Source: Galerina marginata (taxonomy: Eukaryota; Basidiomycota; Agaricomycetes; Agaricales; Galerinaceae). Taken from it: a stretch of DNA of 64,000 bases. Within the stretch, counting starts at the first letter, position 1. The number at the start of each line of letters is the position of its first letter. The stretch is from positions 124,001 to 188,000 of the forward strand of contig JAECYW010000009.1 of NCBI GenBank assembly GCA_023014335.1, read 5' to 3'. The position numbers were made by a program, and so were the translations under genes. The notes beneath the pieces were generated by a model, which did no database searches, had not been told where the DNA came from, and saw nothing but the letters and a program-made list of their open reading frames with translations. Below, in pieces: positions 8,255 through 44,374 of this stretch.

Positions 8255-8955
8255 TTAAATAACGTCCAACTGATTCCAACATGTACTCATAAATTCTTTT
8301 TTGGCAAATTTGTTCTCCTCGGAATTTGTATCCGTTACACGCTCAAGAATCGAGGTAAAAATGAAGCTCCCAAAATGAATACGATGCAACTTTTTTGGAG
8401 GTAAGGAATGGCGAAAATTAGACAGAAGCTGAAAGAAGGCCCGTTTCATCAATAATTCCTGCTAGGCGGTGAAACCCACATACCAATGCACCACCCGACT
8501 ACTATAATGCGGACTCTGACGATTGAGCCTACATTTTCCTCCCAGTAATGGTCTTAGATAGACTGCTTAACTCATTTCATTTGAAGGTTATTCATGAATA
8601 AGAAGACGGCCCGCATCTGCAACGAACATTTGGCGGGGCGGAGAAGTTCAGCACCAGCTTTGGATTTCTTTTTAGTTCTTTAGCCCATGCGAATTTGAAC
8701 TGAATCTGCTCACTAGCTTCACGGGCATTGATAACTTTCTGACAGAATTACGAGCTGTACTTTGGATTTGGTGGAGTTCGTCAGCTAAACGAAGTTAGAA
8801 AGCCACAAGATATGAATTCACTGCCAAGTCAAAGTATACACGTTTTCTGGGGTTTTTCTAATAACTAAAACGACGTTCTTTACAAGCGCGCGATGTACCA
8901 AAAAATTCGAGGACCATTTGCCGAGTGTAGATTTCCCAATGTGCTGGATGACTTT
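8255..8955. other. Spacer between convergent genes
   Basis: 3' flanks of the surface-protein gene and of the minus-strand beta-trefoil-like gene. The part from about 8575 is conserved in block 2 (31120 on). No further gene seen. Confidence 0.5.
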
Positions 8956-9629
8956 TCAGCCAGAGTTGACGAACTCCCAGCGGGTCTCGGAGGCGCCTCC
9001 ATTTTCGACCAAGATAACCTGGGAGAAAAACATTCAACAAATTAAAGCTATCAGAACAAAGGCCAGGTTAAATCTCACGTTGCGTGCAATGGTAAAGTTA
9101 TCAGCGGCGAACTTGGGGTCGTTGACGAGCTTGATGCTGGAGAAACACTTTGTAAATTTAACAGACGATAAGGGTACGATGAACACTTACTTCCACAATC
9201 CAGTGCTCGCGGCCTTGAGCGACCACTTGTAGTCGCCTTCCTGCCACTCAAGGTAGCGTTTACCGTTCGAATCCGTTTTCTAATCATACCAGGTCGAATC
9301 CGAATTAATATTACGCAATGGAAAGAGGAAATAAAAACAAAAATCGATGCACTCACCCCGGAATCGGCGACGCTCAAGTTGGAGTCCGACTTGATCGTGT
9401 AGGCCCCGGTTTGATCGACGGAGACGGTCAGTTTCTACAGCGAGAAAAATGTTAAACTTGTGAGCTCAACATTCACAACATTGATGAGCGCACTTACCGC
9501 CTCCTTGGGGACCTGGTCGCCAATCTTAATGGTGGTGACTGCATCACCCGAGCTGGTCTCGTTGTTGGGCACGATGTAGTACCCGGTCTTGCGGTTCCTG
9601 ATGAGGTAGATACCTGGTGTGACGGACAT
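8956..9629 (-). CDS. Beta-trefoil-like small protein, copy 1
   Basis: Five exons read on the minus strand: 9629-9498, 9434-9357, 9279-9191, 9136-9079 and 9018-8956. Introns are 54-77 nt with GTAAGT/GTGAGT/GTGAGA donors. They encode 139 aa starting MSVTPGIYLIRNRKTGYYIV and ending with the Trp-containing WEFVNSG. There is no signal peptide. The length, the opening PGxYxIRN strand, internal EWQEGDYKWSL and the terminal W-E-F fit small cytosolic beta-trefoil proteins of mushrooms (ricin-B-like lectins or protease inhibitors such as the I66 cospin type). I see no QxW triplets, so lectin versus inhibitor cannot be decided. The three copies share all splice sites and exon lengths and all frames are open, so the gene family is under constraint. 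Exon structure is confident, family moderate. Confidence 0.75.
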
Positions 9630-9688
9630 GGTGTTCGAGGCTGAATGACCGAGTTGTTAATACTGAAGAAATATGAAAGTCGGATCTG

Positions 9689-9696
9689 TATTTATA
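9689..9696 (-). promoter_or_regulatory. TATA box of beta-trefoil-like gene
   Basis: TATAAATA on the minus strand, 60 bp upstream of the ATG; kept at the equivalent place in copies 2 and 3 (near 32317 and 56389). Confidence 0.55.
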
Positions 9697-9699
9697 TGT

Positions 9700-12400
9700 T
9701 TTCTGTCCTACTATGTTGGCGTTGTCGAGGACTGAGGCGAATTGGGTGTATGCTGTGTCTCTGGATTCTCGGCTTCAGCTGTGGCGGCGGCGAGAATGGA
9801 AGGACTGTACCCGAGTGCGCCTTTGAATCTTGATGACAATTACAAAATGTTCGACTGTGCTGTCCTGAAAGCTGGTTCGTCATTCCTTTCAAGCATTTAG
9901 GATAGCACACTCACACCGTCCATAGCTCGTTTGAGGGCCTTATTTACGAACAGATTGAGGGGGTACACACTCTGCCATCGCAGGAAATGGAATTCTGCAA
10001 GTTAACCACGATTTAATTTGACGGCTTGCTCGATATGACCACCCACGAGTGCAAAATCTTTCAAGCAAGCTGGAATGATTTAATACCATTACTCGTGGCG
10101 TTCATGGAATCCCAATAGGGATAGGTATATGGACAAAAGAAATGACGATGTGCAAGCAAGAAAGCGTCCTTCCATACGCATAGATATTGTTGCACAATTT
10201 CATATCGGAGAAAGGGTGCTTCCATACGCATAGATATCGTTGCACGATTCGATATCGAGAGGAAACGGGATTACAATACCTATTGTCAAAAGAAGGCATC
10301 CTAATCAGTACTCATAAGCGAAGAGGGGTGTTACGCCATTGAACTCACTAGGAAAGAGAAAAAGGGCAGCCATTGACGCCATCCTCATAGGCGTGCCCAC
10401 AATTGCTTCCTGAACGATACCGAACGTGAGGAGAAACTGGGACCAAGAATTCCGTACCACTTTCAGCTGGATGGGGTCGATAACCACCGAGCGGGTGCAC
10501 CACGACGTCTGTTCGTAAATGAACAAATCAAACAACGTACAGACAACGGGGTGAACGGACGAACTGGGGTAGAAGCCTATGTTCTCCATTACTGTGCTCG
10601 TATGTGCAACAGTTAGTTTTGTGGATATACGATCAAGAGGTCGCGAGGAGAAGGTAGGCAGCCTTACCATGCCCTGCTGGGCACGCTCGATCGGTGTATG
10701 CAATCAGAGGAACCGAACCCTCCTTGAGGCAGAGAAAAAATCATTATAAAACGTCAGGCGTAGGGAGTACACGAGGAGAGGATGGAGGTGTGGGATACAT
10801 CTGATAATATAAATCGTCAGTCACGTCGCTTAGAAAGGGGGGGAGAAAGATAGCTACCTATTGAATACTCTAGCTATAAGCAGATCCTCGTCGCCTCATC
10901 AGTCGCTCTGCTTTTCTAGGCTTGTAGAATTTCCTGCAGCCGAAGAGATATACCACCCAGTCGATGCGATAGATGATGATGAAGTCGAATCCTTACGGGG
11001 ATGTCAATTACATAGGATATAGGCAGGACATAGTACACACGCAATCTCTTGATTATATGTTTCACGCCAGCTGGGACCGACACGTATACAGCAATACTAT
11101 AACACGGAATTCAGATAACGGAGAGATAGAAAAGGATAGAAAACGTACATCGTACTTGACTCCTAAGTTCTGAAGGCGCGGCTCATGGGCCTCGTTGAAA
11201 CCGAGGCGCGAATGACGAGCGTGGTCCAAAATCTTTACATTCCGGTTGAACCTGACGCAATTGAACTGCTTAAGGGCGTGGACAAGACGTTCGCGATCTT
11301 TTATATTTTAATATGCATATGCTCCGCGCAAGCTGAGACCCTCGAATAGTAATACTACAGAACGGAATTCAGATAACGAAAAGATAGCAAAGAGATAGTA
11401 AACATATGTCGACTCCTCGACTCCTAGGCTCCGACGGGGGGCCTCATGGGCCTCGCTGAAAACTGAGGCGCGGATGACGAGGGTGCTCCATGGTCTTCAC
11501 ATCCGGTTGCACATATGAACCTGACGCAATTCAACTGCTTAAGTTCGCGCATACAATGGACGAAAAAGGCGAAACTGGATTTACCTCGCCCGTTATGATG
11601 AATTTGCTCAGTCAAGGGCTGTCGGAGGTTATCAAATGTTCTTCCTGGGCCAAGACACGACGGGATTTGACGCATATATGCGCATGAAACAGACTGAAAA
11701 CCTGCTGTCCTGCGCTGGCCTTAAGACGGTGTAGGTGGTATGTGAACTGTCCAATTGAAGGTGTATCAGCCTGGCTCCGTATCTAAAAAGTAGAGGAAGG
11801 ATAGAGGAGAAACATTCGTACCACCATCGAGACGCCTAAACCTCTCGCGGTCCGCGTCGACAAATCGGATTCGCATACGAAATGTGGCGTTTCATCCTCC
11901 TTCAATCTGTGACCTCAAGACGCCCGAAGTGAAAGTGTTTGGGCCAATAGAGCAGTGGACTGCGACCGACAGTTTATTTCGACATCCTAGTGGTCCTGGA
12001 TCTGCCGATCCGCAACGATGGTTGGAAATGACGCTTAAAAAGCTCCATCCGAGTTCCTAGAGTCGAATATTTGAGGCACCTTGAGAGGAGGAAAGGAGAG
12101 AAAACATACGTTGATACCACTTCATTGAAGATTGGAAGGCCGAGCTTCGCAAAGCCCGCTGGAGAGCCTTTGTGCGCGGGCGGACGGCCCATCGTGTGCG
12201 TGAGCTCTTCGTGCGCTGCTGGGAGCTGCCTTATGGGGCGGTGCGGGCGGTAGTAGAAAGTTACTCTTTCTTCGCGGCCAGTATGGCTGCTTGGGAAGGT
12301 GGTGAAGAGGGCATTGAGAGGAGTTGGGGTCGACGTCTTTCCGCACGCATTGGTGGGGCCGAGAAGATGCTGCTGCCGACATGAATGGCGCATCCGTGAC
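9700..12400. other. Unassigned block segment
   Basis: Conserved with indels in block 2 (about 32330-35460) and block 3 (about 56410-58720). It has an internal duplication: about 11170-11300 is repeated at about 11425-11540 (CTCATGGGCCTCG...GAACTGCTTAAG). On the minus strand, 12250-12010 has an open stretch interrupted by a plausible GTATGT...CTCTAG intron, and indels between the three copies there are multiples of three (after GAACTCGG), hinting at a coding exon. I cannot name it. Confidence 0.35.
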
Positions 12401-12502
12401 GGCGATTGATTGACCACTCGTTGAATCGAATTCGGTGATCGTCGTCGTAGGGAAGGACTACGACAAGGTGGTTCGGATCGGTGGTTGTTCTCTCGACACC
12501 GA

Positions 12503-12532
12503 ACACGTGACTCGTATTGCGACGCGACGCGC
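12503..12532 (-). promoter_or_regulatory. Shared CACGTG + GCGCGTCGCGTC element (minus orientation)
   Basis: Reads as GCGCGTCGCGTC followed about 10 nt later by AGTCACGTGTT on the minus strand. Equivalent sites lie at 35552-35581, about 60108-60146 and about 60979-61010 (degenerate), upstream (or in the last case downstream) of the glycine-rich genes. Confidence 0.4.
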
Positions 12533-12910
12533 TACCACCGTCCTCACTCTTAATTCAGTATCCCTCCTTCCCGCCTTCCAACTACGTATTTCTTCTAATA
12601 TTTGAAGGCACCAAGTTTATAGATAGAATTATATTACACGTCCTACCCGGACTGCCAGTGTACGTTGACGGTTGCCCGGGCCAAATCTAGTCTCAGACCT
12701 TGTTGTTCGAAACTCTCATGCAGTCAAAATTAACCTGTGGGGACTGCGGTGTGATAAGAAACAAAGAAGGGATGAGGAGCCTGGCGCAAGACCGTCTGAG
12801 GAGGTTGAAGCGTTGACCATTGACCTTGACTCGCCGAAGAAGACAGGTGAATGAAAACATCTATAACATCACCTCATTGCAGCCTCGTGTTCACTGGGAT
12901 GAAAGACGCC

Positions 12911-12917
12911 TATATAA
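12911..12917 (+). promoter_or_regulatory. TATA box of glycine-rich gene 1
   Basis: TATATAA exactly 138 bp before the ATG. The same box at the same distance precedes copies 2 (35953) and 3 (60349). Confidence 0.6.
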
Positions 12918-13048
12918 CGTCTTCCATCGCCACTCCTCATAAATCAACTTGCCTACCTGCGTGCTAGTCTGCGTTTAACAGTGCGTACTTGTCCATTCCT
13001 TTCATTCATCTTGGTCCTCACCTCCTGTAAAAGTCGAATCTCTGCATT

Positions 13049-13381
13049 ATGTACGGAACTCCAGGGAAACCGGGAGAAGCAGCAAAACATTGTCCCAACG
13101 GGAGAGGCGGAGGTGGAGGTGGAGGTGGGGGCGGGGGCGGGGGCGGCTACAATGGCTACAGAGGCAATGATGGCGCTGACGGAGCAGATGGAGCAGCCTG
13201 TTGGAAGCATCCTCATTCTGGGAATCCAGGAAATCGGGGAGGGAGGGGTGGTGGCGGAGGTGGTGGTGGTGGCGGCGGAGGTGGAGGACAGTGTATAATG
13301 ATTGAAGACTCGGATTCCATGACCCACATCAGCGTCGATGGTCCATTACGAGACCAGTTTATATGGCTCTTTTTATCCTGA
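13049..13381 (+). CDS. Poly-glycine/collagen-like small protein, copy 1
   Basis: A 110-aa single-exon protein: basic MYGTPGKPGEAAKHCPNGR head, a first glycine run (about residues 20-33), a collagen-like GADGADGA and SGNPGNRGG centre with cysteines, a second glycine run (about 67-79), and a fixed C-terminus CIMIEDSDSMTHI...FIWLFLS. No signal peptide. The three copies keep frame, start and C-terminus while the glycine runs differ in codons and length, so the protein frame is the likely functional one among three open frames. Small Gly-rich proteins of this style are common in Agaricomycetes and have no assigned biochemical role. It sits between the beta-trefoil-like and HET genes in every block. 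Confidence 0.65.
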   Translation: MYGTPGKPGEAAKHCPNGRGGGGGGGGGGGGGGYNGYRGNDGADGADGAACWKHPHSGNPGNRGGRGGGGGGGGGGGGGGQCIMIEDSDSMTHISVDGPLRDQFIWLFLS

Positions 13382-15597
13382 GGTCCTGTAGGTGTTGGTG
13401 CGGCAAAGGCCGTTATCTGATTTTAGTGATTGACCAGTAGTTGAATCAAATTCTGTGTCGTCGAGTTGAAGGACGTGCCCTATTCTTGTTTGCATTTGGT
13501 TTGCTTCGAATATGTCACTTCCCTTTGACTAAATCGAGAATTCGCCTGGTTGGAGACATCGCCCGCTCTCTTAAACTCCTAACATGGATTCGTGATACAA
13601 GCGCCGGAGAACTCGTCCGTGTTAACCAACTATTGCACCTAGAATGGCGGTAATGGTTGTCGTTGTCCGATCTCTTGATCTTTTGGTTAACGGAGGGCAC
13701 GGATTGACCATTTCAATGTAACAGAATAATTATTTATTTCTCATTGGACCCACCTTCAAAGCTGTGACTCTTGGAAGAGCACGATCGAACGGCAGGTGCC
13801 GCTGCCCGCAGCCCGCTTCCTATCTCAAACTTCGAACCTCTTCGGATGTGTTTTCGGTCCCTGAGCAAGAGAACGGGCGGTAAGACGCCAAACTAATGAG
13901 GATAAGTGCGATAAGTGATGTGAGAAAAAAGCACGCACACAACGGTTCCTTCATGATCATCTCAAAAGTAGGTATCACCCTTCATCCTGGCCCCCGCTCC
14001 AGCTCCAGCTCAGGAGGCGCTTCGGTTTCATGGCAAGCAGGCGACTCCTGAAGGCGGCATAGACGACTGGATAATGTTTCCCTGGAAAAGAAAAACTATA
14101 AAACGACGAGGGTATGGTGAGGTGGATCCACAATCGGAAAGGCCGACGCAGGCGACTCGTCTGCACTCTTCAGGATAGAGTCATGCCCCGTTAGGTCGAC
14201 GCCGTTCTCGACGAAGACAGCGAGAAGGAGCAGATCTCACCTACGCACGACGACCACCACAGAATTCTAAGCGTATCTGTCGCTGGGTGATCGGAAGGAG
14301 GCTGACAGGGCTGATCACGATAATGGATGTCTGCGTGGCCAGGCTCTGGCGACAGCGGCGACTAGGAGGCTAAGAAGATCCAGGAAAAGAATGCATGGAC
14401 AAGGATAGCGGGTACGCACTGAGGAAGAAGACGATGAATGAGAAGGGGAAGGGGATGAATGTGACTAACACGGGCGTTGCTGAGCTGATGCTGAAGTCGA
14501 TGTGGAAGCTCTAGAGAGGAATTTGCAGACTGGGGAGAAAGTTTAATTGCAGCGTTTTGGATATAGTCAACGTTGGACCAGTGTTGAGTTGAGCTCATTC
14601 TCGGGTCTTCCGACTTCCGCCGTTGTCATTTAAACTCCAACGGCCACCAGAACGAAGATCGTACACGCCGAGCTCCACGACCAGATCACCGTAGTATATG
14701 TTCTCGCCTTCTCAGCGTACATATTGCCCCTAATGGTGGTATCGACTTCATGACAGTTAGCTTGGGGAGGCAGGCCAGGGTTCATGCTGGCCGTCCCGAC
14801 TCCCTCACGGCGTGATAGAAAACGCGGAGGTCGATGAGGTAGTGCCGGCGACGATGAGAACGGATATCGAATACGGATACGGTCCATATGCGGATGGAGG
14901 AAGAGAACTGGGGGCTGGGCTGTAAATGAACGGAAGGGTAGTAGGAACGAGCGATATCACTGACGAAACAGCCGCTGGTCGAGACCAGGACCGTGCGTCT
15001 ATGTTGATGATGTTGTTCTTAATATCGAGAAAGTTTTGAGGAATGTAAAACGAAGTGAGCAGGTAGGAGTTGGCGGTAACTGCTATAGTTCAAGAAGAAA
15101 ACGAGTCGGCGCTGAGGAGGTTGGACTTGAGGCCTTGAGGGTGAGCCCGAACAGTCCCAAGCTCATGCCTGGGACGCCCAGCTCCAGTTTCGAGATTCCA
15201 GGGATAATGGTAGTCGGCCTGAGCTGGCGTTGGCTATGTCGCACCGAGGAAACTGACCAGTGAGGCATGAATACGCGAGCGCTGAGGCCTGAGGTCCGAG
15301 ATGGACAAAGAACTTCATATGCGCGGTTTGGATGATAGGCCGGGTCGAGGTGGCAGTCGACGTTTATGCCAGCGAGGAATCCTTAAGGACGGTACAAGAA
15401 CCATTATTTGCATCGAATGGGTTGAGCTTGAGAAGATCGTGATTCCATGTTCAATATCCATGTTCAATATCCATTCTCAATGCTCGATCTTCGAGGGTTC
15501 CTTTCGAAGAGGAGAAGAGCAACCACTACAAAAGGTTAACTCAACTGCAGGCCACTGCAGGCGCACAAGGAGAGCATATTGACTTACCAAGTCGCCG
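13382..15597. other. Unassigned block segment
   Basis: Matches about 36950-38670 and about 61700-63440. A minus-strand frame around 14640-14760 reads YYGDLVVELGVYDLRSGG, matching YYGDLIVELDVYGLRSGG in block 3 and FYYGDVVVEI in block 2. These conservative replacements suggest old coding sequence, but an in-frame stop precedes it in blocks 1 and 3. No family recognised. Confidence 0.3.
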
Positions 15598-15740
15598 TAA
15601 TAGCCTATCATGCCTACCCTAGCAGCTCGGGTCTGGCGATGCTCGGATAGCACGTCGGGAACAGTGGCAACGAACTCAATAACACGCGGGACGGTCGGGA
15701 CCACTGTGCAGCTGATCATGACTAATTGGATCAAAATCCC
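15598..15740 (-). CDS. Partial exon of an unassigned minus-strand gene, block 1
   Basis: Open exon ending ...VIEFVATVPDVLSEHRQTRAARVGMIGYYGDL before a GTAAGT donor. Block 2 (38680-38835) and block 3 (about 63441-63590) encode nearly the same peptide. Differences are mostly synonymous or whole-codon indels, which supports coding. Upstream and downstream exons are not resolved and no family is recognised. Confidence 0.35.
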
Positions 15741-17414
15741 CGGGCCGCTTGCTTGACGCCTCTGGAGGTTGTTTCTCAACATCGACGGCTCTGTCCAGAG
15801 ACTGTTCTATCAGGCGCGACATCTTGAGTGCCATTCTATTTAGACGATAATCTCAACAAAACCGCAATCACCTTAAGCCAGCCTCCTTGTTTACCTCGAC
15901 GCCGACCAGCCTGTATAGACCATACTGGATGTCAACCGACCTTACCCGATAACTAGAGGTTACGATACGATTGACTGCACCTGCAACTTCACACTCGATG
16001 AAGGTTCTCCTTCCTGACATGCGAGTTGCCCGGCCTATGTGCGGGCACGGGACTAGGCGAGTAAGGAGGGTGGAGAGGGAGTGTGTGATGGCAGGCCGTG
16101 TGTGGAGCTGGGATGTGCTACGGACGCGAAGAACAGGGAGGTGCGTAGTGCGTAACTTGATACTAATGAAAGCAGCAGGAATCAATGATTTTGACCGTCT
16201 ATCACGCAGCTGCGCCGTCTGACGCCACAATTCCGTGCCACCAGGCCAATGGCGTCCGATAAAGACCACAGCCAATTTGAGCGTTGAAGAGTGGACATCA
16301 CTGCTGTCGCCTCCTTGCCTGTCCCGCCCATCTCGTCGTTGCTACTCGTGCCCAGCCCGTCGGCGCAACGTCAACGCCCTACCAAATCCCTGATACTCCA
16401 AGGTACGTACAACTCACTTCTGTCCCTCTGCATAAACCGACGTATTCTGTATTCCTACCTAGAGCCTACGCACAGCCCTGCCGGTCTGTCTTGGGCCCCA
16501 TCCTGCCTTTCATAGCAGAAACCACCTCTTATTCTTTGCACCTTGCGCTCCTAAACCTGGAGCGGGTAGGACGGAAAGAGTTCAAAGAGGTGAGAAGGTC
16601 GTCGACTCCGAAATTACGCTTCAGTCACCCGCTAACGTTGACTTAGGCGGGGGCACAAGCGGGATGGGCAGGGAACGCGCTTTCGACACCGAATCGACAC
16701 TTCAGAAAGCGGGCGTAAACTGGATGCCCGTGTCAAGTCGCAATTGCAATCACAGCCTCCGCTCCATTTGGTGGAGGAGAGCACAACTCCAATCTATCGT
16801 AAGATTTTCGGTGATATCACGAAGAACTATAATAATATTACTCTGCGGGCTCACGTCCTTCATTTCGGCGAAGAAAGTCAAATGAAGTGATTTGTCTGAT
16901 TCGATGGTGATGGCGCGGCGATGGGCACAGCAATTCTTCCATGAAGGCCCGGTGTGATGGTGAAGCTGCCTGGAGGTTCACGTCCGCCGCCCGTTAACAT
17001 CTTGTCAGGTGCTCTGTACATTACTCCGATTGGTACGATCAAGAAGATGATCAATTCCGAGTCTTCCAGTTATCTCGAGTACATCTGGGTCCAATTTGGC
17101 CAGTTAGACGATCCTTCGAGCGCGTAAGCAGCACAAAGGTGACTCGCTCTTTGCCCTCTAAGTGTATGCGCGGCTCCTCCACCAAACGATCTCCTACTTT
17201 GAGAACTATGTCTTCTGCTTAACCCATCTTGGCAACTGTTTTATTTTGGCCGCTCTGATTTCCATGCCGGCGTTGAACTCTCTTGATAATAATAGCTCCC
17301 TAAAATTATCCCAACAAGTGACAGCCAGCGCTGTACTTGTCAGCCCGGTGAAGGAATCAGGACGTCGATTTGATTATGGCGCAGAGGCTGATGCTTAAGT
17401 AGACGATTGACCGC
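15741..17414. other. Unassigned block segment upstream of HET gene 1
   Basis: Conserved in block 2 (about 38840-40577). On the plus strand an exon at about 16461-16587 reads AYAQPCRSVLGPILPFIAET, flanked by a GTACGT...CCTAG intron and a GTGAGA...CTTAG intron. Block 2 conserves the peptide, but the preceding exon differs by a 7-bp frameshift. Possibly a small, decayed three-exon gene; no family recognised. Confidence 0.3.
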
Positions 17415-20400
17415 ATGATGACTCGTTTTCTCCCCTCTTTCCGCTTCCACCAACCAAAGGACGAAAACTCAACCCAGACCTTAACGGTGCGTCAGAATTT
17501 GCTTCTTAGTTTACGATTTCTCTCAACATTATTTTAGAACTCGAAGCTCTAGAGGGTAAGCGCTCTTATCCGGCCACCGACGAAATTTAGACGAAATTTA
17601 TCATGATCAAACCTCCGGAATAGATGGCCGACAAAAATGTGAGCAAGGTATTCGTTTAATTGGGAGAAAACCTCTCAACGTGAAGCAATGCTGTCGTTTT
17701 TATAGTTTGTAAGTTATGTCATTCGTCAACAACGTCAAGTTCTTAACCTTGCCTTTCCTCGTGTCCTCGAGAATGCAAGTAGATTTTTCCAGTATTGAGC
17801 AGTGGTTATTACGACGCTAATTGTGTCCCTTTCTCTACGATGATGGTTTGGCTTATCAGTGGGCAAGTACTATCTCTCGAAATAAAAGTTTTAATCCATG
17901 CTTATCTCTAAGTTTGGGCACCAGGAGGTGCGTGAAATTACGGGATACTATGATTATATTTACCAATGTTGTTGTGATGGTGAATCATATTTAGAAAGTA
18001 TGTGAATAGACCTATCTCTCGGAAAGTACGTTCTGACTTATAAGTCATCTGAAGGAAGTGTGTGGCAACTCAAATACATCAAATATATGGGAAGGTGGCT
18101 GACTATTATGGACTGTTGTTCTGTCATTAGACGGTGAGGCGTCTTAACCAGTATAGTTATTAGGTCTCAAATGACTAACTGGAGTTGATACATGTACAGC
18201 CGGTGCGACAGTAGCTTGAATCCTGCAGGCGTTTAACTAATGAAGTTGTTTTTTTCGGAAACTCAGGATGTACGTTGAGTCAATCAGATATTGGCAAAAA
18301 TGTGGCATTAAAACTCCCCTTAGTTGTGTCGTCAGAGAGTAAGTGAGGGTGCTGCGTTGGTGAAATCTCTAACGAAAACACGGTGTGTCCTTAGGAAGTA
18401 CGTAAATCCTTTGAATATTCTGAGGAATTGACTTACACAAATGTGATGGGTTTGTGTCCTCAGGAAGTACGTGAATCAATTGAATATTCCGAGAAATTGA
18501 CTTACAAAAATGCGACGGGTTTGTGTCCTCAGAGAGTACGTGAATCTATTGAATATTCTGAAGAATTAACTTACACAAATGCGACGGGTTTGTGTCCTCA
18601 GTATGTACGTGAATTCAGTCAATATTTTGGGGAATTGACTCACAAAAATACGATGGGTTTGTGTCCTCAGAGAGTACGTGAATTAATTGAATATTCCAAG
18701 GAATTGACTTACAAAAGTGCGACGGGTTTGTGTCCTCAGGAAGTATGTGAATCCATTGAATATTCCAAGAAATTGACTTACAAAAATGCGACGGGTTTGT
18801 GTCCTCAGGCAGTATGTGAATCCATTGAATATTCCGAGGAATTGACTTACAAAAATGCGACGGGTTTGTGTCCTCAGGATGTACATGAATCAATTGAATA
18901 TTCCAAGGGATTAACTAACAAAAATGTGACGGTTTGTGTCCTCAGGAAGTACGTGAATCCATTGAATATTCCGAGGAATTGACTTACAAAAATGCGATGG
19001 GTTTGTGTCCTCAGAGAGTACGTGAATCCATTGAATATTCCGAGGAATTGACTTACAAAAATGCGATGGGTTTGTGTCCTCAGAGAGTACGTGAATCCCT
19101 TGAATATTCCGAGGATTTGACTTACAAAAATGCGATGGGTTTGTGTCCTCAGGCAGTATGTGAATTCATTGAATATTCCGAGGAATTGACTTACAAATGC
19201 AACGGGTTTGTGTCCTCAGGAAGTACGTGAATCCATTGAATATTACAGATGGTGCATTTTTTACTCCATTCTTTTTTGTTTTTTCTAGCCAACATACATG
19301 TTAAAGAACAGATACCCCACCTGTAATTTCGCTATATTTGGTAGATGGTGTCCTCTCCGTCACTCATATTTTTTACTCCAGTGATCAATGGCGTCATTAA
19401 CGCATACATTCATAATCATCTTCCAATTTTCCTTCTAGATCTTGAACAAATGCAACTTGTCCATAGAGGTGCTCTTGCGACCATTTTATTGGACAAGACG
19501 ACAATATTTATGGAACATTGTACCGACAATGTGCCTGAGAAAGACGTTCAGTCTATTACCACAAACTGGATAACTCAGGAGACGTCATATTCAATCCTTT
19601 CCCATCGATGGCTTCCTGGTGGCGAGTTGGCATTTACTGATATATTAAAATTTGCAGATTATCAGGGCATACTGCACGAGTTGATCAAATTTGACTCTCC
19701 AAGTCACGGTGCAAATATTGCGATCGAGGTGATTATTGTTGTTATGAACAGTGCAATCCACACTAAGTCAAGCTGCCCAGTTGGACGACCTTATGAAGCA
19801 GTCGTACCAAGCATTGTTTCCAGCTGATCAAAAAAAAACCTGCTTTCCGAGCTTCAAAAAGCTCATCATATTTTGTTGGATCTCTGCTCAACATTCCTGC
19901 CGCTTTGTTTGGTTTGACTCTGGTTGTATCAACAAAAGCAGTAGCGCCGAGCTTGAGGAATCAATTCGATCCATGTTTAATTGGTACTCCAAATCCAAGG
20001 TTTGCATTGTGCACCTTGCCGATACCACCGACGTTCCAAGCTTTCGTAAAGATCAGTGGTTTACACGAGGCTGGACCTTACAAGAACTCTTGGCGCCGAA
20101 AAGCCTGAAGTTCTTTGGGAAATCATGGAGACTCATAACAACCTCTTCCGTCAACAATAATGATAACGACAAAATTGTTAATTCTGCATTAAAGCAACAT
20201 CTCTGGAATCATGTCTCGGATATAACAGGGATTTCACCGGACCACTTCACCACATTTAATTCCGGGATTGACCGTGCTAGAGACACTCTTGCGTGGTTAT
20301 CAAAGCGGAAGACGACCCGGATTGAGGACATGGCCTATTGTCTCATTGGTTTATTGGGCGTTCCACTTACCATCGCTTACGGAGAAGGGGAGAAGGCATT

Positions 20401-20887
20401 TTATCGATTGCAGGTAGAGATTTTCCAGCATACTGCAGACATAGGACTCTTCGTCTGGCAGGGACAGTCATCAATTGGTAATAGCATGCTTGCAGCCAAG
20501 CCAGATAGCTTTTCGTCCGAATCGTCTTTCACGATCCAGCCATTTTCATCCTCAACATCAACAGACAATATCGACCCGTCTTCCTCGTTGACTAACCTTG
20601 GCTTGCGGATCTCGTTATGGGTTTACAGAATTCCAGCCGACAAGTGGTTCATGGAAAGCAGTGAACAAAAAATTACTTTGGCTGAGCCGTTGAATATCAC
20701 TATGAAGCTCCAAACCCGCCAAGATTATGACCTTGTCGAGCTCGCTTTTCTTGGCAAGGTAGACAATGAAGGGTCCCTCGCCATCTTGCTAGGCTCCAAA
20801 GGTGGACAATGGAAAAGGATATCAAGCGACTACACTTTCCTTTATTGTCCCAGAGGCACTTCCCTCCAAACGAGATTCATTCGCTAA
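17415..20887 (+). CDS. HET-domain protein with single-codon exon array, copy 1
   Basis: Inferred model: exon 1 at 17415-17486 (MMTRFLPSFRFH..., 24 codons), exon 2 at 17538-17555, exon 3 at 17624-17638 (MADKN). Then come 23 exons of exactly 3 nt (first codon at 17706, then 17772, 17860, 17925, 17995, 18055, 18131, 18200, 18267, 18336, 18395, then the tandem array to 19220). Next is the large exon 19345-19728, a 52-nt intron, and exon 19781-20887. Every intron is phase 0. The 496-aa C-terminal part is a HET (heterokaryon-incompatibility) domain: YSILSHRW (82-89), FVWFDSGCINKSSSAELEES, WFTRGWTLQELLAP, RKTTRIEDMAYCLIG and YGEGEKAFYRLQ. HET proteins trigger cell death on non-self fusion in fungi. 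Oddities: exon 2 contains TAG (17550-17552) where copy 2 has CAG, so translation may begin at the exon-3 ATG. The last array intron is damaged. A simpler start at the ATG 19345 is also possible. Confidence 0.7.
18398..19222 (+). repeat. Tandem 69-bp intron-codon array, copy 1
   Basis: Twelve consecutive units, each a GTACGT...CCTCAG intron (66 nt in ten units, 65 and 64 nt in two) plus one codon. Array codons following the units encode, in order, ERYREA then DERRAE. The branch-site core varies as CTTAC, CTCAC (unit at 18605) and CTAAC (unit at 18881), always keeping CTNAC. Introns are nearly identical whereas the triplet changes almost every unit. Read straight through, the array gives a 23-aa repeat, but the 65- and 64-nt units break that frame. 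Confidence 0.85.
19223..19344 (+). other. Fused terminal intron of array 1 (deletion scar)
   Basis: GTACGTGAATCCATTGAATATT is joined directly to ACAGATGGTGC. In copy 2 these halves are separated by the rest of that intron plus further introns and codons. A 26-nt intron would be too short, so splicing must jump to the AG at 19288 or 19344. A use of 19344 keeps phase 0. Confidence 0.5.
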
Positions 20888-20910
20888 CGTTCCACGATCA
20901 CGGTTTTCCA

Positions 20911-20964
20911 GGTAAGTCCTCTTTCAATAAACGACACCCATAACTTTCCTAATTACAATCCTAG
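20911..20964 (+). other. Probable 3'-UTR intron of HET gene 1
   Basis: GTAAGT donor, CTAAT branch-like site and CCTAG acceptor, 23 nt after the stop codon; conserved at 44375-44427 in copy 2. Confidence 0.45.
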
Positions 20965-22350
20965 TCGTGGTCTCCACTCAAGAGTCAAGACCCGTAGTTC
21001 TGTTTATAAAATGACCGAGACTGTAGATAGTTCAAGTTTCCCATTCGCAATCTCTCTTCTCTTTCTTTCGCACCTGCCCAGAAATTCAACGGAAAGCAGG
21101 TCAATAATCAAAAGAAATTCCAGACCCCCGTACGTTTCATTTCTGAAATTCGGCTCTAGGAGTTTAAAAGGCAATCAAAAGTACCGGTGTGAATTGTAAT
21201 GGAACGCATGAAGTCGCCGTGAAATTCAAAGCCTTGACAATGAATACCATTTAGATTCGAGCGAACTTCACTCCATTTGGTACAGCGCTTTGGACTTTTC
21301 ATTCGGAATCTCGGATCTTACACTCACATTCAGAGCTTGTCTGTCCCGTAATCCCGGGCATAAAGCTCTTTCCACAACCACGAGAAACGAGTCCTCGTTT
21401 CTCCTCCTCCGAACACACAAAAACAGGCTTATAGAGGCGCGTCGCGTCGTTCTATCAGTCACGTGTTACTTGTTGGGATCAAATTTTCGTCCTTCCCGCC
21501 CTCCCGCCATCGCTCTTCCATCTCCTTGCACAATCGTCTCTCAGTCCTCTACTTACGGGTTGCTGAATACAGTTCAAGTATGGCCCATATCCTTGGGCAC
21601 ATTCGACGCCTTGAAGGTCGCAGCCATTCGTGCGACGCCGCGCTTTCAAGTCAAATTGTGCCTGCTTTTACTCAGTTTATTGACTTCTTTTGCGATCTCC
21701 TGGATGTCGTTGGAAGTTCTGGATTTCCGGTGAGGAAGGACGTTATGTTGGATTCGATCTTTTGCTAATCGTTTTCAAGAAGAATGGCTCTTGAAGCTTG
21801 ACATGCTTAACAGCCCGCCTTTTCTTTTGGTTCTGCGGTTACCACGTATCTCGCATCTTCATTGAAATCACAGTATGGGTTTTCAGTGGAGAAACCAAGC
21901 GACTAGGTACATGCTTCCTCGCCTTTCCCTCCTCTGGAGTCGAAGCTGAACGAACTTTGTCGTTCTCAGCTCGCCGTTGGCGGTACTTTATCTTCCAAGA
22001 TCTCCTCCCCCTTCAAGTTCGACCTCTTCTGAGGCCCGCAGCAAACCTGTCACCATAACTATGATATTTGACTCCCCGTCAATTCATCACCTGGCTCCGT
22101 ACCTCTGTACCCGCACCGTTTGTCCGCGATTTGGTCATCGCCATCACCGGTCCTTGTCTTTTCACCAACCGTCTCCTCTCAGGGAGGGTGCACGATTTCC
22201 AATCCTCTGATCCAAACATCCTCGTGCTCTGTCGTAGCAGCCCTTCCGCTACTGTACCCTCCATCCCTTTGTCAGTGTCCTGCTCGCGACCTGGTCGTAC
22301 CCGCCCCTGTGCATGCAACATCTCCTGCTCCACAGTTCTTGTCACTCCCA
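20965..22350. repeat. Dispersed segment D, copy 1
   Basis: Matches 29770-30830, 47980-48950 and (shorter) 54930-55285. Landmarks are the GCGCGTCGCGTC...TCACGTG element (21438-21470), a stretch with CTCGCCGTTGGCG and a GGCTCCGTACCTC stretch. Open frames disagree between copies, so I call no gene. Confidence 0.6.
21438..21470 (+). promoter_or_regulatory. Shared GCGCGTCGCGTC + TCACGTGTTAC element
   Basis: Plus-orientation member of the family. Others start near 28031 (diverged), 29903, 48008 and 55230 (diverged). It combines an MCB-like ACGCG/GTCGCG block with a CACGTG E-box about 10 nt later. Confidence 0.45.
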
Positions 22351-31115: not shown

Positions 31116-31581
31116 ATTTCGGATTAATTGATTTCATTTGAAAGTTGTTCTTAAATAAGAAGACGTTCCATCTGCAACGAACCTTTGGCGGAGCGGCGAA
31201 CTTCAGCACCAGCTCTTGGTACTCCTAATCGCTCTAACCGCATACATTTTCGGACCTTCCTCTCTTCAATTTTCCGCGTGCCATGGATTTCTTTTTAGTT
31301 CTTTAGTCCTTGAGAATTTGAACTGAATTAGCTCGTTAGCTTCACCGGGAATTGATAACGTCCGACAGGATAACGAGCTGTACTTTGCATTTGGTGGAGT
31401 TCGTCAGTTAAATAAAGAAGGTAGAAAGCCACAAGATATGAATTCACTGCCAAGTCAAAGTATACACATTTTCTAGGGTTTTTCTAATAACTAAAACGAC
31501 GTTCTTCACGAGCCCACGCTGTACCAAAAAATTCGAGGACCATTTGCCGAGTGTAGATTTCCGGATGTGCTGGACGACTTT

Positions 31582-32257
31582 TCAGCCAGAGTTGACGAAC
31601 TCCCAGCGGGTCTCGGAGGCGCCTCCATTTTCGACCAAGATGACCTGGGAAAAAAAGATTCAACAATTAAAAGCTATCAGACCAAAGGTCAGGTCAAATC
31701 TCACGTTGCGTGCAATGGTAAAGTTATCGGCAGCGAACTTGGGGTCGTTGACGAGCTTGATGCTGGAGGAAAACTTTGTAAATTTAACGGAGAATAAGCG
31801 TACGACGAACACTTACTTCCACAATCCAGTGCTCGCGGCCTTGAGCGACCACTTGTAGTCGCCTTCCTGCCACTCGAGGTAGCGTTTACCGTTCGAATCC
31901 GTTTTCTGATCATACGAAGTCGAACATTAATATTACGCAATGGAGAAAATGAAGAAAATCCAAAAAAACGATGAACTCACCCCGGAATCGGCGACGCTCA
32001 AGTTGGAGTCCGACTTGATCGTGTAGGCCCCGGTTTGATCGACGGAGACGGTCAGTTTCTACAGCGAGAAAAAAAAAAGTTAAACTTGTGAGCTCAACAT
32101 TCACAACATTGACGAGCGCACTTACCGCCTCCTTGGGGACCTGGTCGCCAATTTTAATGGTGGTAACTGCATCACCTGAGCTGGTCTTGTTGTTGGGCAC
32201 GATGTAGTACCCGGTCTTGCGGTTCCTGATGAGGTAAATACCTGGTGTGACGGACAT
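31582..32257 (-). CDS. Beta-trefoil-like small protein, copy 2
   Basis: Exons on the minus strand: 32257-32126, 32058-31981, 31905-31817, 31762-31705 and 31644-31582. Exon lengths are identical to copy 1 (132, 78, 89, 58, 63 nt), all splice sites are intact, 139 aa. It differs by few residues (for example NNKTSSG where the others have NNETSSG). The TATAAATA box upstream is kept. The full conservation of reading frame while the neighbouring surface-protein gene was deleted argues that this gene is retained by selection. Biochemical role as uncertain as for copy 1. Confidence 0.75.
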
Positions 32258-32329
32258 GATATTCGAGGCTGAATGAGCGAGTTGGTGATACTGAAGAAAT
32301 ATGAAAGTCGGATCTGTATTTATATATTT

Positions 32330-34402
32330 TCCTTTCAACTATGTTTCCGTTGCCGAGGACTGACGCAAGTTGGGTGTATGCTGAGTCTGTGGATTCTCGA
32401 CTTCAGTCGTGGCGGCGGCGAGAATGGAAGGGCTGTACTCGAATGCACCTTTGAATTCTGATGTCAATTACAAGATGTTGGACCGTGCTATCCTGCAAGC
32501 TGATTCGTCATTACTTTCAAACATTTCGAATAGCACACTCACACCGTCCTTAGCTCGTTTGAGGGCCTTATTTACGAACAGATTGAGGAGGGACACACTC
32601 TGCCATCGCAAGGAAAGGGAATTCTGCAAGTTAACCATGCTTTATTTTGACGGCTTGCTCGATGTGACCTTTCAAACAAGCTGGAATGATGTAATACCTT
32701 TACTTGTGGCGTTCATGGAATCCCAATAGCGATAGGTATATGGAAAAAAAAAATATGACGACATGCGAGCAAGAAAGCGTGCTTCCATACGCATAGATAT
32801 TGTTGCACGATTTGATATCGGAGAAAGTATGCTTCCATACGCATAAATATCGATGCACGATTGGATATCGGGAGGAAACGGAATCACCGTGCCTATCGTC
32901 AAAAGAAAGAAGGCATCCTAATCAGTACTCATAAACGAAGAGGGATATCATGCCATGAACTCACTAGGAGCGACAAAAAGGGCTGCCACTGACGCCATCT
33001 TCATACGGCGTTGCAGTTGCTTCCTGAACGATACTAAACGTGTCGAGAGCACTGGGACCGGGAATTCCATACATAACGGACCACTCAACTCGATGGAGTC
33101 GACAAAAACCCGAGAAGGTGCACCAGCAAATCTTTTTGTAAATGAACAAATCAGACGACGGACAGGCAACGAGGTGAGCGTTATGAACTGATGTCGAGGC
33201 CCATGTTCTCCGTTACTGTGCTCGGCGCTCCTACGTGCAAAAGTTAGTTTTGTAGATTTACGATCAAAAGGTCGAGAAAAAGTCGTTCGAAAAAGTCAAG
33301 GGTAGGGGGTACACGAGGATAGAGGTGTAGGATACGTCTGATGATATAAATTGTTACTACGTTAGTTATGTCGCTTAGAAGGGGGAGAAGGAAGAAAACT
33401 ACCTATTACATACTCTAGCTATAAGCAGATCCGAGTCGCCTCATCAGTCGCTCGGCTTTTCTAGGCTCGCAGAATTTCCTGCAGCCCAAGAGATACACCA
33501 CCCAGTCGACGCGATAGATAAAGTCGAATACCTACAGGGGTGTCAATTATATAGGATATGGGCAGGACATACGCAATCTCTTGATATTTCTATATGCTTC
33601 ACGCCAGCTGGGACCGACACGTATACAGCACAGCAATACTATAGAACGGAATTCAGATAACGGAGAGATGGAAAAAGGATAGAAAACGTACATCGACACC
33701 TCGACTCCTAAGCTCCGACGGCGAGACTCATGGGCGTCGCTGAAAACTGAGGCGCGGATGACAAGCGTGGTCCAAGATCTTCACATTCCGGTTGCATATC
33801 TGAGCCTGACGCAATTCAACTGCTTAAGTTCGCGCGTACAATCAACGAAAAAAGCGAAATTGAATTTACCTCGCCCGTTATGATGAATCTACTTAGTCAA
33901 GGGCTGTCGGAGGTTATCAAATGTTCTTCCCGGGCCAAGACGAATAAAATTTAGCGCATACTATATGCATATGGAACAGGCTGAAAACCTGCTCGTCCTG
34001 CGCTGGACCTAAGACGACGGAGGTTGTAGGTGAACTGTCCAATCGATGGTATATCAGCCTGGCTCCGTATCTAAAACGTAAAGGAAGGATAGACGAGAAA
34101 CATTCGTACCACCGTCGAGACGCCTAAACCTCTCGCTTTCCGCGTCGACAAATCGGATTCGCATATGAACTCGTGGCATTTCCTCCTCCTTCAATTTGTG
34201 ACCTCACGACGGCCGAGGTGAAAGTGGTTGGGCCAATAGACTAGCGGACTGCGGACTGCGGCCGACAGTTTATTTCGACAGTCAAGTGGTCCTGGATCTG
34301 CCGATCCGCAACGAAGGCTGGAAATGAACGATGAGCTCGATCCGAGTTCCTAGAGTCGAATATTTGTGACACCAGGAGAGGATGAAAGGAGAGAAAACAT
34401 AC
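32330..34402. other. Unassigned block segment, block 2
   Basis: Counterpart of 9700-12110, with no named gene. A pair of GCTTCCATACGCATA(G/A)ATAT repeats (about 32780 and 32828) recurs in all three blocks (10152/10211 and 56828/56877). Confidence 0.35.
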
Positions 34403-34410
34403 GTTGATAC

Positions 34411-35178: not shown

Positions 35179-35186
35179 GTTGATAC

Positions 35187-40577: not shown

Positions 40578-43500
40578 ATGATGGCTCGTTTTCTCCCCTC
40601 TTTCCGCTTCCACCTTCCCAAGGACGAATACATAACCAAGCTCTTAGCGGTGCGTCAGGATGTGCTCCTTAGGTTACGATTTCTCTCAACACTATTTTAG
40701 AACCAGAAACTCCAGAGGGTAGGTGCTTTAATCATCAAGCCACCGACAAAATTGACCATTACCAAACCTCAAGAATAGATGGCCGAAAATGTAAGCGAGG
40801 TATCCGTTTATTTGGGCGAAGACCTCTCAAGGTGAAGCCATATTATCATTATTGTAGTTTGTGAGTTTTGTCATTCGTCAACGGCGTCAAGTCCTTAACC
40901 TTTCCCTCTTCGTGTCCTCTAGAATGTAAGCGGATGTTTCCAATACTGAGCAGCGGTTATTAAGATGCTGATTGTGTCTCTTTCTCTACGATGATGGCTT
41001 GGCTTATCAGTGGGCAAGTACTATCTCTCGGAATAAAAGTTTTAATCCACGCTTACCTCTAAGTTTTGGCATCAGGAGGTGCGTGAACTTGCGGAATACT
41101 GGGATTATGTTTGCCAATGCTTTTGCGATGGTAAATCACATTTAGGAAGTATGCGAATATACCTCTTGCTTGGAAAGCGCTTTCTGACTTATATTTCATC
41201 TGAAGAACGTGCGTAGCGACTCAGATACATCAAATATATTAGAAGTCAGCTCACTATTATGGAATGTTGTTCGGTCATTAGACGGTGAGGCATCTTAACC
41301 GGCATAGCCATTAGGTATCAAATGACTAACTGGAGTTGACACCTGCACAGCCGGTGCGACAGTAGCTTGAATACTGCAGGCGTTTAACTAATGAAGTTGT
41401 TTTTCTCGGAAATTCAGCATGTCCGTTGAGTCAATCAGATATTAACAAGAATGTGGTAATAAAACTGCCCTTAGAGGTGTCATCAGAGGGTAAGTGAGGG
41501 TGCTAGGTTGGTGAAATCTCTAACGGAAACACGGTTTGTGTCCTTAGGAAGTACGTAAATCCATTGAATATTCCAAGAAATTGACTTACAAAAATGCGAC
41601 GGGTTTGTGTCCTCAGAAAGTACGTGAATCCATTGAATATTCCGAGGAATTGACTTACAAAAATGCGACGGGTTTCGGTCCTCAGTTCGTACGTGAATCC
41701 ATTGAATATTCCGAGGAATTGACTTACAAAAATGCGACGGGTTTCGGTCCTCAGTTCGTACGTGAATCCATTGAATATTCCGAGGAATTGACTTACAAAA
41801 ATGCGACGGGTTTGTGTCCTCAGTTAGTATGTGAATCCATGGAATATTCCGGGGAATTGACTTTCAAAAATGCGACGGGTTTCTGTCCTCAGTTCGTACG
41901 TGAATCCATTGAATATTCCGAGGAATTGACTTACAAAAATGCGACGGTTTGTGCCCTCAGAATGTATGTGAATCCATTGAATATTCCGAGGAATTGACTT
42001 ACAAAAACGCGACGGGTTTCTGTCCTCAGGCAGTACGTGAATCCATTGAATATTCCGAGGAATTGACTTACAAAAATGCGACGGGTTTGTGTCCTCAGAA
42101 TGTACGTGAATCCATTGAATATTCCGGGGAATTGACTTACAAAAATGCGACGGGTTTCTGTCCTCAGTATGTACGTGAATCCATTGAATATTCCGAGGAA
42201 TTGACTTACAAAAATGCGACGGTTTGGGTCCTCAGTTCGTACGTGAATCCATCGAATATTCCGAGGAATTGACTTACAAAAATGCGACGGTTTGTGCCCT
42301 CAGAATGTACGTGAATCCATTGAATATTCCGAGGAATTGACTTACAAAAATGCGACGGGTTTCGGTCCTCAGTTCGTACGTGAATCCATTGAATATTCCG
42401 AGGAATTGACTTACAAAAATGCGACGGTTTGTGTCCTCAGAATGTACGTGAATCCATTGAATATTCCGAGGAATTGACTTACAAAAATGCGACGGGTTTC
42501 TGTCCTCAGACAGTACGTCAATCCATTGAATATTCCGAGGAGTTAACTTAAATATGAAAATTCTCAGTTGGTACATGAATCCGTTGCTTTTCTTCTGCTT
42601 TCTGTCACTCACTCTCGCCATCCTTTTTTCATCTCAATAGCGAGTAAGTGTACTGCTGTCCAGCATTACCTGCTATTTATCTCTTACTTACTTTATTTTA
42701 CAGATGGTGCATCTTTTACTCCATTCTTTTTTGTTGTTTCTTGCCAACGTACATGTTAAAGAACAGATACCCCACCTGTAATTTCGCTATATTTGCTAGA
42801 AGGTGTCCTCTTCGTCACTCATATTTTTTACTCCAGTGATCAATGGCGTCATTAACGCATACGTTCATAATCATCTTCCAATTTTCCTTCTAGATCTTGA
42901 ACAAATGCAACTTGTCCATAGAGGTGCTCTTGCGACCGTTTTATTGGACAAGACGACAATATTTATGGAACATTGTACCAACAATGTGTCTAAGAACGAC
43001 ATTCACTCTATTGCCACAAACTGGATAACTGAGGAGACATCATATTCAATCCTTTCCCATCGATGGCTTCCTGGTGGCGAGTTGGCATTTACTGATATAT
43101 TAAAATTTGCAGATTATCAAGGCATACTGCGCGAGTTGATCAAATTTAACTCTCCAAGTCACGGTGCAAATATTGCGATTGAGGTGATTATTGTCGTTAT
43201 GAACAGTGCAATCCACACTAAGTCAAACTGCCCAGTTGGACGACCCTATGAAGAAGTTGTACCAAGTGTTGTTTCCAGCCGATCAAAAAGAAACCCGCTT
43301 TCCGAGCTTCGAAAAGCTCATCATATTTTGTTGGATCTCTGCTCAACATTCCTGCCGCTTTGTTTGGTTTGACTCCGGTTGTATTAACAAAAGCAGTAGC
43401 GCCGAGCTTGAGGAGTCAATTCGATCGATGTTTAATTGGTACTCCAAATCCAAGGTTTGCATTGTGCACCTTGCCGATACCACCGACGTCCCAAGCTTTC

Positions 43501-44350
43501 GTAAAGATGAGTGGTTTACACGAGGCTGGACTTTACAAGAACTTTTGGCGCCGAAAAGCCTGAGGTTCTTTGGGAAATCATGGGGACCCATAACAACCTC
43601 TTCCTTCAACAATGATGATAACGACAAAATCGCTAATTCTGCATCAAAGCAACATCTCTGGAATCACATCTCGGATATAACAGGGATTTCACCAAAGCAT
43701 TTCTCCACATTTAATTCTGGGGTTGACCGTGCCAGAGACGCTCTTGTGTGGTTATCAAAGCGGAAGACGACCCGGATTGAGGACATGGCCTATTGTCTCA
43801 TTGGTTTATTAGGTGTTCCACTTACCATCGCTTACGGTGAAGGGGAGATGGCATTTTATCGATTGCAGGTGGAGGTTCTCCAACGTACCGCAGAGTCGCA
43901 GACATGGGACTATTTGTCTGGCAGGGACAGTCATCGGTCGGCAACAGCATGCTTGCGGCTAAGCCAGATAGCTTTTCGTCCGAATCATCTCTCACAATCC
44001 AGCCATTTTCCTCCTCAACATTGACAGACGACATCGACCCATCGTACTCGTTGACTAACTTCGGTTTGCGTATCCGATTACTGGTTTACAGAATTCCAGC
44101 CGACAAGTGGTTCATGGAAAGCAGTGAACAAAAAATTACTTTGGCTCAGCCGTTGAATATCACTCTGAAGCTCCAAACCCGCCTAGATTATGACCTTATC
44201 GAGCTCGCTTTTCTTGGAAAGGTAGACAACCGAGGGTCCCTCGCTATCTTGCTAGGCTCCAAAGGCGGACAATGGAAACGGATCTCAAGCGACTACACCT
44301 TCCTACATCGTCCCAGAGGCACTTCCCTCCAAACGAGATTCATTTTCTAA
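40578..44350 (+). CDS. HET-domain protein with single-codon exon array, copy 2 (frameshifted)
   Basis: Inferred model: exon 1 at 40578-40649 (MMARFLPSFRFHLPKDEY...), exon 2 at 40701-40718 (NQKLQR, no stop), exon 3 at 40779-40790 (MAEN). Then 28 three-nucleotide exons from 40858 to 42704-42706, large exon 42800-43183, a 52-nt intron, and a final exon from 43236. All introns are phase 0, and the frame runs unbroken from exon 1 into the HET domain. HET motifs are as in copy 1. An 8-bp insertion GCAGAGTC at 43890-43897 shifts the frame after RLQVEVLQRT; the shifted frame stops at 44024, about 452 aa in total, whereas the ancestral frame would have run to 44350. One intron (41014-41075) uses a GC donor in both copies. 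The conserved exon-1 reading frame argues the array is coding and not 5' UTR. The gene may be a recent pseudogene or encode a truncated protein. Confidence 0.65.
41551..42512 (+). repeat. Tandem 69-bp intron-codon array, copy 2
   Basis: Fourteen near-identical introns (66 or 65 nt), each followed by one codon. Array codons 12-25 encode KFFLFNA then NYFNFNT. The 65-nt units (ending at 41960, 42235, 42303 and 42440) would break a read-through frame. Besides the codon, only two bases 9-10 nt upstream of the acceptor vary repeatedly (GT, CT, CG, GG). Three further unlike introns with codons TTG, CGA and ATG follow to 42706. Confidence 0.85.
43890..43897 (+). other. 8-bp frameshifting insertion in HET exon
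   Basis: GCAGAGTC is inserted before GCAGAC and shares GCAGA with it, as expected of slippage or an excision footprint. Removing it restores the copy-1 frame TADMGLFVWQG. Confidence 0.7.
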
Positions 44351-44374
44351 CGTTCCACGATCATGGTTCTCCAG

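Follow-up and report, generated by a model that had tools for sequence, protein, structure and literature searches.

What does the stretch in front of the HET-domain gene encode, in a window (the 64,000-nucleotide DNA analysed here as a whole) where acceptor-like and donor-like dinucleotides recur exactly three bases apart? The first-pass annotation had described 23 consecutive sites of this kind and read them as a peptide spelled one residue per intron. We recovered all 23 AG-NNN-GT/GC sites on the forward strand, between 17704 and 19218 (positions of the A of AG), and the same chain finder returned no chain of five or more sites in 30 order-2 Markov sequences modelled on the background of the window. 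Along the path selected by splice-site score, the predicted introns of this array (copy 1) are 56-93 nt long; 7 of the 23 are not multiples of three, in keeping with the claim that such lengths are common, and the triplets contain no stop codon, as had also been stated. The branch-like CTAAC had been placed correctly at 18175, while the CTGAC given as 18035 actually starts at 18033. The elements of copy 1 upstream of the HET exons are:

17415..17486, forward strand: candidate upstream exon (ATGATGACTCG...), coding or 5' UTR, 72 nt, donor GTGCGT, aligned in 7 copies
17553..17555, forward strand: candidate extra microexon AGG between CTCTAG and GTAAGC, proposed from the sequence
17624..17638, forward strand: predicted first coding exon ATG GCC GAC AAA AAT, phase 0, with the ATG in 7/7 copies
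17706..19155, forward strand: chain of 22 predicted 3-nt exons, namely 17706 TTT, 17772 AAT, 17860 TGG, 17925 GAG, 17995 AAA, 18055 GAA, 18131 ACG, 18200 CCG, 18267 GAT, 18336 AGA, 18395 GAA, 18464 GAA, 18533 AGA, 18602 TAT, 18671 AGA, 18740 GAA, 18809 GCA, 18878 GAT, 18946 GAA, 19015 AGA, 19084 AGA and 19153 GCA
18384..19244, forward strand: young part of the array, a 69-nt tandem repeat consisting of a 3-nt codon and a 66-nt intron (TRF, 12.5 copies, 88% matches)
19220..19222, forward strand: GAA triplet, probably skipped, followed by a shortened intron
19249..19251, forward strand: predicted microexon ATG, the next candidate after the GAA at 19220 (ATG, AAG, AGG or GTG in other copies)

The candidate exon at 17415..17486 has a 1-nt deletion in its copy 5 counterpart, and a longer exon starting from an acceptor upstream of the AGG at 17553..17555 would contain a stop in copy 1. 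The predicted ATG exon is 12, 15 or 27 nt long in six copies, always a multiple of three; in copy 4 there is no AG before the ATG, and in copy 5 the exon is shifted, longer and rearranged, and also open. At locus L041 this small ATG exon of copy 5 looks expanded by repeats resembling its own next intron (GTAAGCGAGGTATCCG), so that intron sequence was apparently converted into open coding sequence.

Since the units from 18384 onward form a 69-nt tandem repeat (consensus of the 66-nt segment: GTACGTGAATCCATTGAATATTCCGAGGAATTGACTTACAAAAATGCGACGGGTTTGTGTCCTCAG), the sites of copy 1 are not independent, and it is the pattern of variation, not the bare site count, that departs from chance. The first half of the array, composed of diverged segments with the same layout, is probably older. 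The triplet path of each array was picked by donor and acceptor scores and not by the absence of stops. Over the 197 sites of the seven copies described below there are 79 alternative overlapping readings within 4 nt, ten of them with TAA; e.g. an unscored path through sites ten and eleven of copy 1 reads TAA and TAC, where donor and acceptor scoring gives AGA and GAA. The GAA at 19220 is followed by the next AG after only about 26 nt, because copy 1 lacks the array end kept in the other six copies, and it is probably skipped because its downstream intron is truncated.

The array belongs to a family of seven HET-gene copies in the genome with 197 sites in total (24, 29, 29, 26, 29, 31 and 29 in copies 1-7), and in six of them the last chain site is the start of the HET exon. 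Each of the seven arrays lies upstream of a relative from the same HET-gene family; contig C43 carries three on the forward and two on the reverse strand, and C30 one on each. A two-unit probe gave at least 77 matches in the genome, and every match listed falls inside the seven arrays. The second copy lies within the window, at 40858-42800, and the other five elsewhere in the genome. Its elements are:

40858..42706, forward strand: copy 2 chain of 28 predicted 3-nt exons, FNWEENTPHREKFFLFNANYFNFNTLRM
41533..42550, forward strand: copy 2 69-nt tandem repeat, 14.8 copies (TRF)
42800..44350, forward strand: copy 2 HET exons, with AAG where copy 1 has ATG, exon B being frameshifted

The predicted array peptides are FNWEKETPDREERYREADERRAM in copy 1, the above peptide in copy 2, FDWEGNTLDREERYRLFEGAIRREELRK in copy 3, FNWEENTPEKEDDARAFEFRARRARR in copy 4, FNWEKNTSDKEEEELAARRQQIYFFLKV in copy 5 and FNWEENTPDRDRRREEEENRLLFEYFESRV in copy 6, and that of copy 7 equals copy 3 except for one change; the peptides open with the conserved motif F N/D W E x x T and continue with a variable part. 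Two members are damaged: copy 4 has stops, no AG-NNN-GT at the HET exon and no in-frame join, and copy 2 has its frameshift downstream, in HET exon B. Among the HET genes compared, AG-NNN-GT chains were confined to this seven-member family: no chain of four or more sites at the score used was present in any of 30 other HET-matching loci (L001-L008 and L052-L073, some of them overlapping, taken with flanks of about 1.5 kb, out of 56 HET matches in the genome).

The window also contains three diverged copies of a segmental duplication (8661-16794, 31284-39876 and 55284-64000), with blocks of about 76-94% identity, and a further alignment of 17279-21136 against 40450-44602. HET genes follow two of the three duplicated segments; for the third, both array and HET gene fall immediately past the window (C43:190k). 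Each segment has one set of glycine-codon-rich tandem repeats of the GGAGGTGGT type (13104-13284, 36148-36335 and 60680-60725). Two long frames, 2704-4323 and 52513-54333, bear a weak likeness to F-box/LRR proteins, below the Pfam cut-offs.

Comparison of the repeat units reveals a sharp concentration of variability in the triplets. Among 100 tandem units, which were chosen by flank likeness and never by codon likeness, a choice that reduces the diversity of the flanks, the three codon columns have nucleotide diversities (pi) of 0.68, 0.70 and 0.56, with 20 different codons. The unfiltered young units (102 sites, 70 distinct contexts) give 0.69/0.72/0.54 for the codon and a mean of 0.153 and a maximum of 0.456 for the flanks; the filter had dropped three of these 102 sites, all from copy 4, and kept one outside them, the GAA at 19220. 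Across 82 distinct contexts, containing 20 triplets, the codon window (pi 0.642) ranks at the top of 67 windows, and the median of those that do not overlap it is 0.144.

The composition of the triplets is also unusual. None of the 197 triplets on the score-chosen path is a stop, against about 16 expected from column composition, and none occurs in the 82 distinct tandem contexts, against 6.4 expected from column shuffles (P about 1e-4); as the copies are related, stop counts are not independent and the P values for the array serve as guides only. A GTN triplet would place a donor at the exon's own start, and such triplets are absent from the 82 tandem contexts (6.4 expected) and occur twice in the 165 of the whole chains (11.7 expected). 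NAG triplets are likewise absent from the 82 (2.3 expected) and number 11 of 165 in whole chains (21.1 expected). AGN triplets, each of which introduces another AG, exceed expectation (17 of 82, 6.3 expected), and simple avoidance of competing acceptors therefore does not fit. Shifting the frame by +2 creates stops in all seven copies from the first joint onward, and a shift of +1 does so in five, with none in copies 4 and 7, and at the last joint only in copies 1, 2 and 6. As the array alone does not fix the phase, the assignment of phase 0 depends on the ATG and HET exons as well.

The segments between the triplets retain the layout expected of introns. We aligned 89 tandem introns, required to begin with GT[AC][CTA], to contain AATAT and to be 60-72 nt long, and found a mean column pi of 0.097 (maximum 0.467), a donor that does not vary at position 6 and hardly does at position 5, and that a branch-like CTTAC at positions 35-39 is nearly invariant apart from its third base (pi of 0.022/0/0.022/0 for the C, T, A and C of CTNAC, and 0.228 for the N). 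Donors switch between GC and GT from copy to copy with the other donor bases unchanged. Length varies, with tandem introns of 64 and 65 nt beside those of 66 nt and a range of 59-72 nt in copy 4. When 100 repeat cores were located without reference to splice sites, AG-NNN-G[TC] was present at the 5' side of 98, at the 3' side of 94 and at both sides of 92, compared to a background of 6%; the eight exceptions comprise five shortened last units, whose projected end is misplaced, and three units of copy 4. Of 190 predicted introns, 41 have no CTNAY motif 12-50 nt before the AG; most of these belong to the older series or to the last units.

Downstream of the array, the HET gene of copy 1 is predicted to consist of the following parts:

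19345..19728, forward strand: predicted HET exon A, phase 0, MVSSPSLIFFTPVINGVINAYIHNHLPIFLLDLEQMQL...YSILSHRWL..., open frame, aligned in 7 copies
19729..19780, forward strand: predicted 52-nt intron, removal of which joins exons A and B in frame
19781..20887, forward strand: predicted HET exon B, 368 aa, HET domain core and C-terminus (Pfam PF06985)

Against a cut-off of 22.5 bits, the PF06985 profile scores 37.2 on the open frame 19748-20884 and 36.4 once the exons are joined, and the match spans positions 43-90 of its 146. A Pfam scan of the joined protein placed HET alone above the cut-off, with no NACHT or ankyrin match at E <= 0.1. The nearest named relatives are Galerina marginata proteins titled "partial" (P0005 and P0007), which are 89% and 81% identical across 63% and 66% of the query length and make an Agaricales mushroom the probable host. 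A protein search with the predicted spliced N-terminus returned two matches, both to the HET part and none with the tail. In copies 3 and 7, the counterpart of the 52-nt intron contains a TGA. This intron (19729-19780) aligns to continuous protein in P0001 and other relatives, and it may have begun as a frameshift that intronisation then repaired. Excluding the broken copies 2 and 4, dN/dS of exon B is 0.22-0.27 in 9 of the 10 pairs among copies 1, 3, 5, 6 and 7 (copies 3 and 7 are identical in this exon); exon B is under purifying selection in these five copies. For exon A, taken from VINGVI in all seven copies, dN/dS ranges from 0.41 to 2.65, with low divergence except in comparisons with copy 4, and is uninformative about selection. 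Exon A is far less diverged than exon B (dS of 0.03-0.07 in differing pairs without copy 4, versus 0.21-0.30), as if gene conversion had extended from the array side.

The least secure part of the model is where the array meets the HET exon. The frame had been said to run from the third annotated exon into the HET exon, and we predict a phase-0 join at 19345 in copy 1 and in six copies overall, with copy 4 failing. Position 19345 could also be a start codon, because in five of the seven copies it is an ATG that directly follows an in-frame TAG. An acceptor just before VINGVI was considered in its place, because homologues vary there and copy 4 keeps an AG there; this join was rejected and the phase-0 exon at 19345 preferred, because the former needs a shift of +2, with stops in all seven arrays.

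In our assessment, about two dozen one-codon exons probably link the ATG exon to the HET exon by splicing in phase 0, giving the protein a short variable N-terminal tail. The reading of one residue per intron follows from the hypervariable stop-free triplets, the conserved donor, branch and acceptor signals, the free intron length and the phase-0 join to the HET exon in six copies; the seven-copy comparison thus strongly supports what the first-pass annotation proposed, with the splicing itself predicted from genomic sequence.

The alternative to be taken most seriously, albeit an unlikely one, is that the array is non-coding, i.e. a minisatellite in the 5' UTR, in the promoter or in one long skipped intron, and that the HET protein starts at the ATG at 19345. 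It draws on the TAG-ATG arrangement described above, on the related protein P0003, in which a methionine lies equally far from the conserved VIDxV motif, and on the fact that TRF reports an ordinary 69-nt tandem repeat. However, it leaves unaccounted for the hypervariability confined to the three bases between AG and GT, provides no reason for stop-free triplets, for the lack of GTN in tandem units or for a kept donor and CTNAC with a free N, and has to accommodate copies 2 and 4, which lack an ATG at the position equivalent to 19345. No Rfam family of structured RNA reached its gathering score within the window. Slightly less likely again is that the array was formerly spliced and that the copies are now decaying, with the protein no longer made. 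The broken HET frames of copies 2 and 4, the truncated last intron of copy 1 and the frameshifted candidate exon 1 of copy 5 would fit such decay, but copies 1, 3, 5, 6 and 7 have an open exon B that evolves under purifying selection, and all seven arrays still exhibit splice signals and stop avoidance.

Two further alternatives concern the nature and the origin of the repeat. That the whole 69-nt unit is translated, yielding a repeat of 23 residues of which one is hypervariable, as in TAL or WD repeats, we regard as highly improbable: one frame indeed runs for 195 codons without a stop (18395-18982), and the variable triplet is a codon there too, but 64-65-nt units or in-frame stops break the frame in 7/7 copies, the older 56-85-nt segments depart from the 69-nt period, the copy 1 read-through protein has no relative at E <= 10, and the variation of the tandem segments shows no third-position excess (0.105/0.084/0.103 by position). 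A translated repeat of the WD, ANK or TPR kind was rejected on the broken frames in seven copies and the missing codon periodicity. An origin by introner-like mobile introns that invaded a coding stretch at every codon, leaving ancestral codons in between, would be compatible with splicing and would account for near-identical introns next to unrelated codons, and introner-like elements have been reported in fungi (PMC4457414). Nevertheless, we judge it improbable, as separate insertions would hardly produce the exact 3-nt spacing at each site and as the probe matches listed, from at least 77 in its own genome, all lie in the seven arrays; invasion was rejected in the absence of dispersed intron copies among them.

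Variation of the predicted codons is uncoupled from that of the adjoining introns. In near-identical unit pairs (115 pairs without copy 7, with one mismatch or none across 63 flanking intron bases), codon sites differ at a rate of 0.667 and intron sites at 0.013. Two units carry an equal codon with a probability of 0.26 when their flanks are identical (23 pairs), of 0.12 with 1-3 flank differences and of 0.10-0.15 with more. Of 1950 array positions, four distinguish copies 3 and 7; two of these lie in one codon and a third in the donor of that codon. For the nine older codons, however, divergence between copies is about that of their introns, and hypermutation of codons everywhere was rejected on this ground. 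Adjacent units share a codon in 20 of 79 cases, against 12.7 in shuffled order, and tandem duplication therefore probably occurs too. The simplest account of the uncoupling is that recombination homogenises the introns and selection favours diverse codons; codon replacement at the seam between repeats might also be responsible.

As to the mechanism, intron definition would remove each 51-93-nt intron; a 3-nt exon would then need no exon definition, because introns this short can be removed in that mode. The array would thereby add about 23-30 residues at the N-terminus of the HET protein. As each microexon equals one codon, skipping any of them would keep the frame, and alternative splicing could therefore yield many tails. 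Unequal recombination between 69-nt units would lengthen, shorten and shuffle the tract, and selection would keep its residues diverse. The tail would tune the response of the protein, with the HET domain acting as the cell-death effector; given this domain and the codon diversity, the modular tract for self-nonself recognition that had been envisaged is plausible. Should splicing proceed as predicted, the array would provide a natural test of how the spliceosome copes with some two dozen 3-nt exons in a row, and of complete codon divergence next to unchanged 66-nt introns; gene predictors would be expected to miss such tails.

Schistosome micro-exon genes resemble the HET arrays in having chains of small exons with lengths that are multiples of three, but their exons are longer and do not comprise one codon each. 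Among fungi, a report on Fusarium CYP621A (PMC12940212) describes a 1-nt exon that is accurately spliced according to RNA evidence; it is likewise an ultra-small exon, but single, isolated and located in a conserved motif, not in an array. The HNWD/STAND genes of Podospora anserina, as portrayed in PMC4986451 and PMC9815663, share with the HET arrays near-identical repeats with few variable positions and the exchange of repeats within and between paralogues; their repeats are translated domains, whereas the repeat of the HET array is predicted to be almost all intron, with one residue each. None of the literature matches listed, in a search that mostly left out subscription papers, describes arrays of this kind in a HET gene or a basidiomycete.

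The closest counterpart is the NACHT-ANK (nank) family of Tuber melanosporum, with tens of alternatively spliced 3-bp microexons (Iotti et al. 2012, Fungal Biol 116:261, as related in PMC4986451, PMC3689799, PMC10197012 and PMC9815663). Both cases comprise tens of 3-bp exons in an expanded fungal family of the self/nonself type, and in both a diversification of the recognition part has been proposed; at the level of genomic sequence, the HET arrays have the same kind of consecutive 3-nt exons flanked by splice sites, 24-31 per copy. They differ in that nank belongs to an ascomycete and combines NACHT and ankyrin domains with a potential C-terminal recognition domain (PMC9815663), whereas the HET tract is N-terminal, its splicing is predicted and its host probably belongs to Agaricales. 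The HET genes are not members of the nank family, because their joined protein has no NACHT or ankyrin match at the above threshold. It is conceivable, but we put it forward tentatively and as less probable than its opposite, that a fungal recognition gene here writes a variable peptide one codon per intron; that recombination in homogenised introns amounts to single-residue exchange; that the codons are free cassettes, diversified independently of the intron copy beside them, any subset of which can be selected by splicing; and that this arrangement evolved independently of that in truffles, as a second route to receptor diversity that works one residue at a time, perhaps with a seam process replacing whole codons. 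With splicing as predicted, single-codon exon arrays would be a recurrent means of diversifying fungal self/nonself genes, not a truffle oddity, and would extend to another gene class and probably another phylum. Arrays of one-codon exons are thus not unprecedented, given the truffle NACHT-ANK case; what appears new is their predicted occurrence in a HET gene, as an N-terminal tract and probably in Agaricales.
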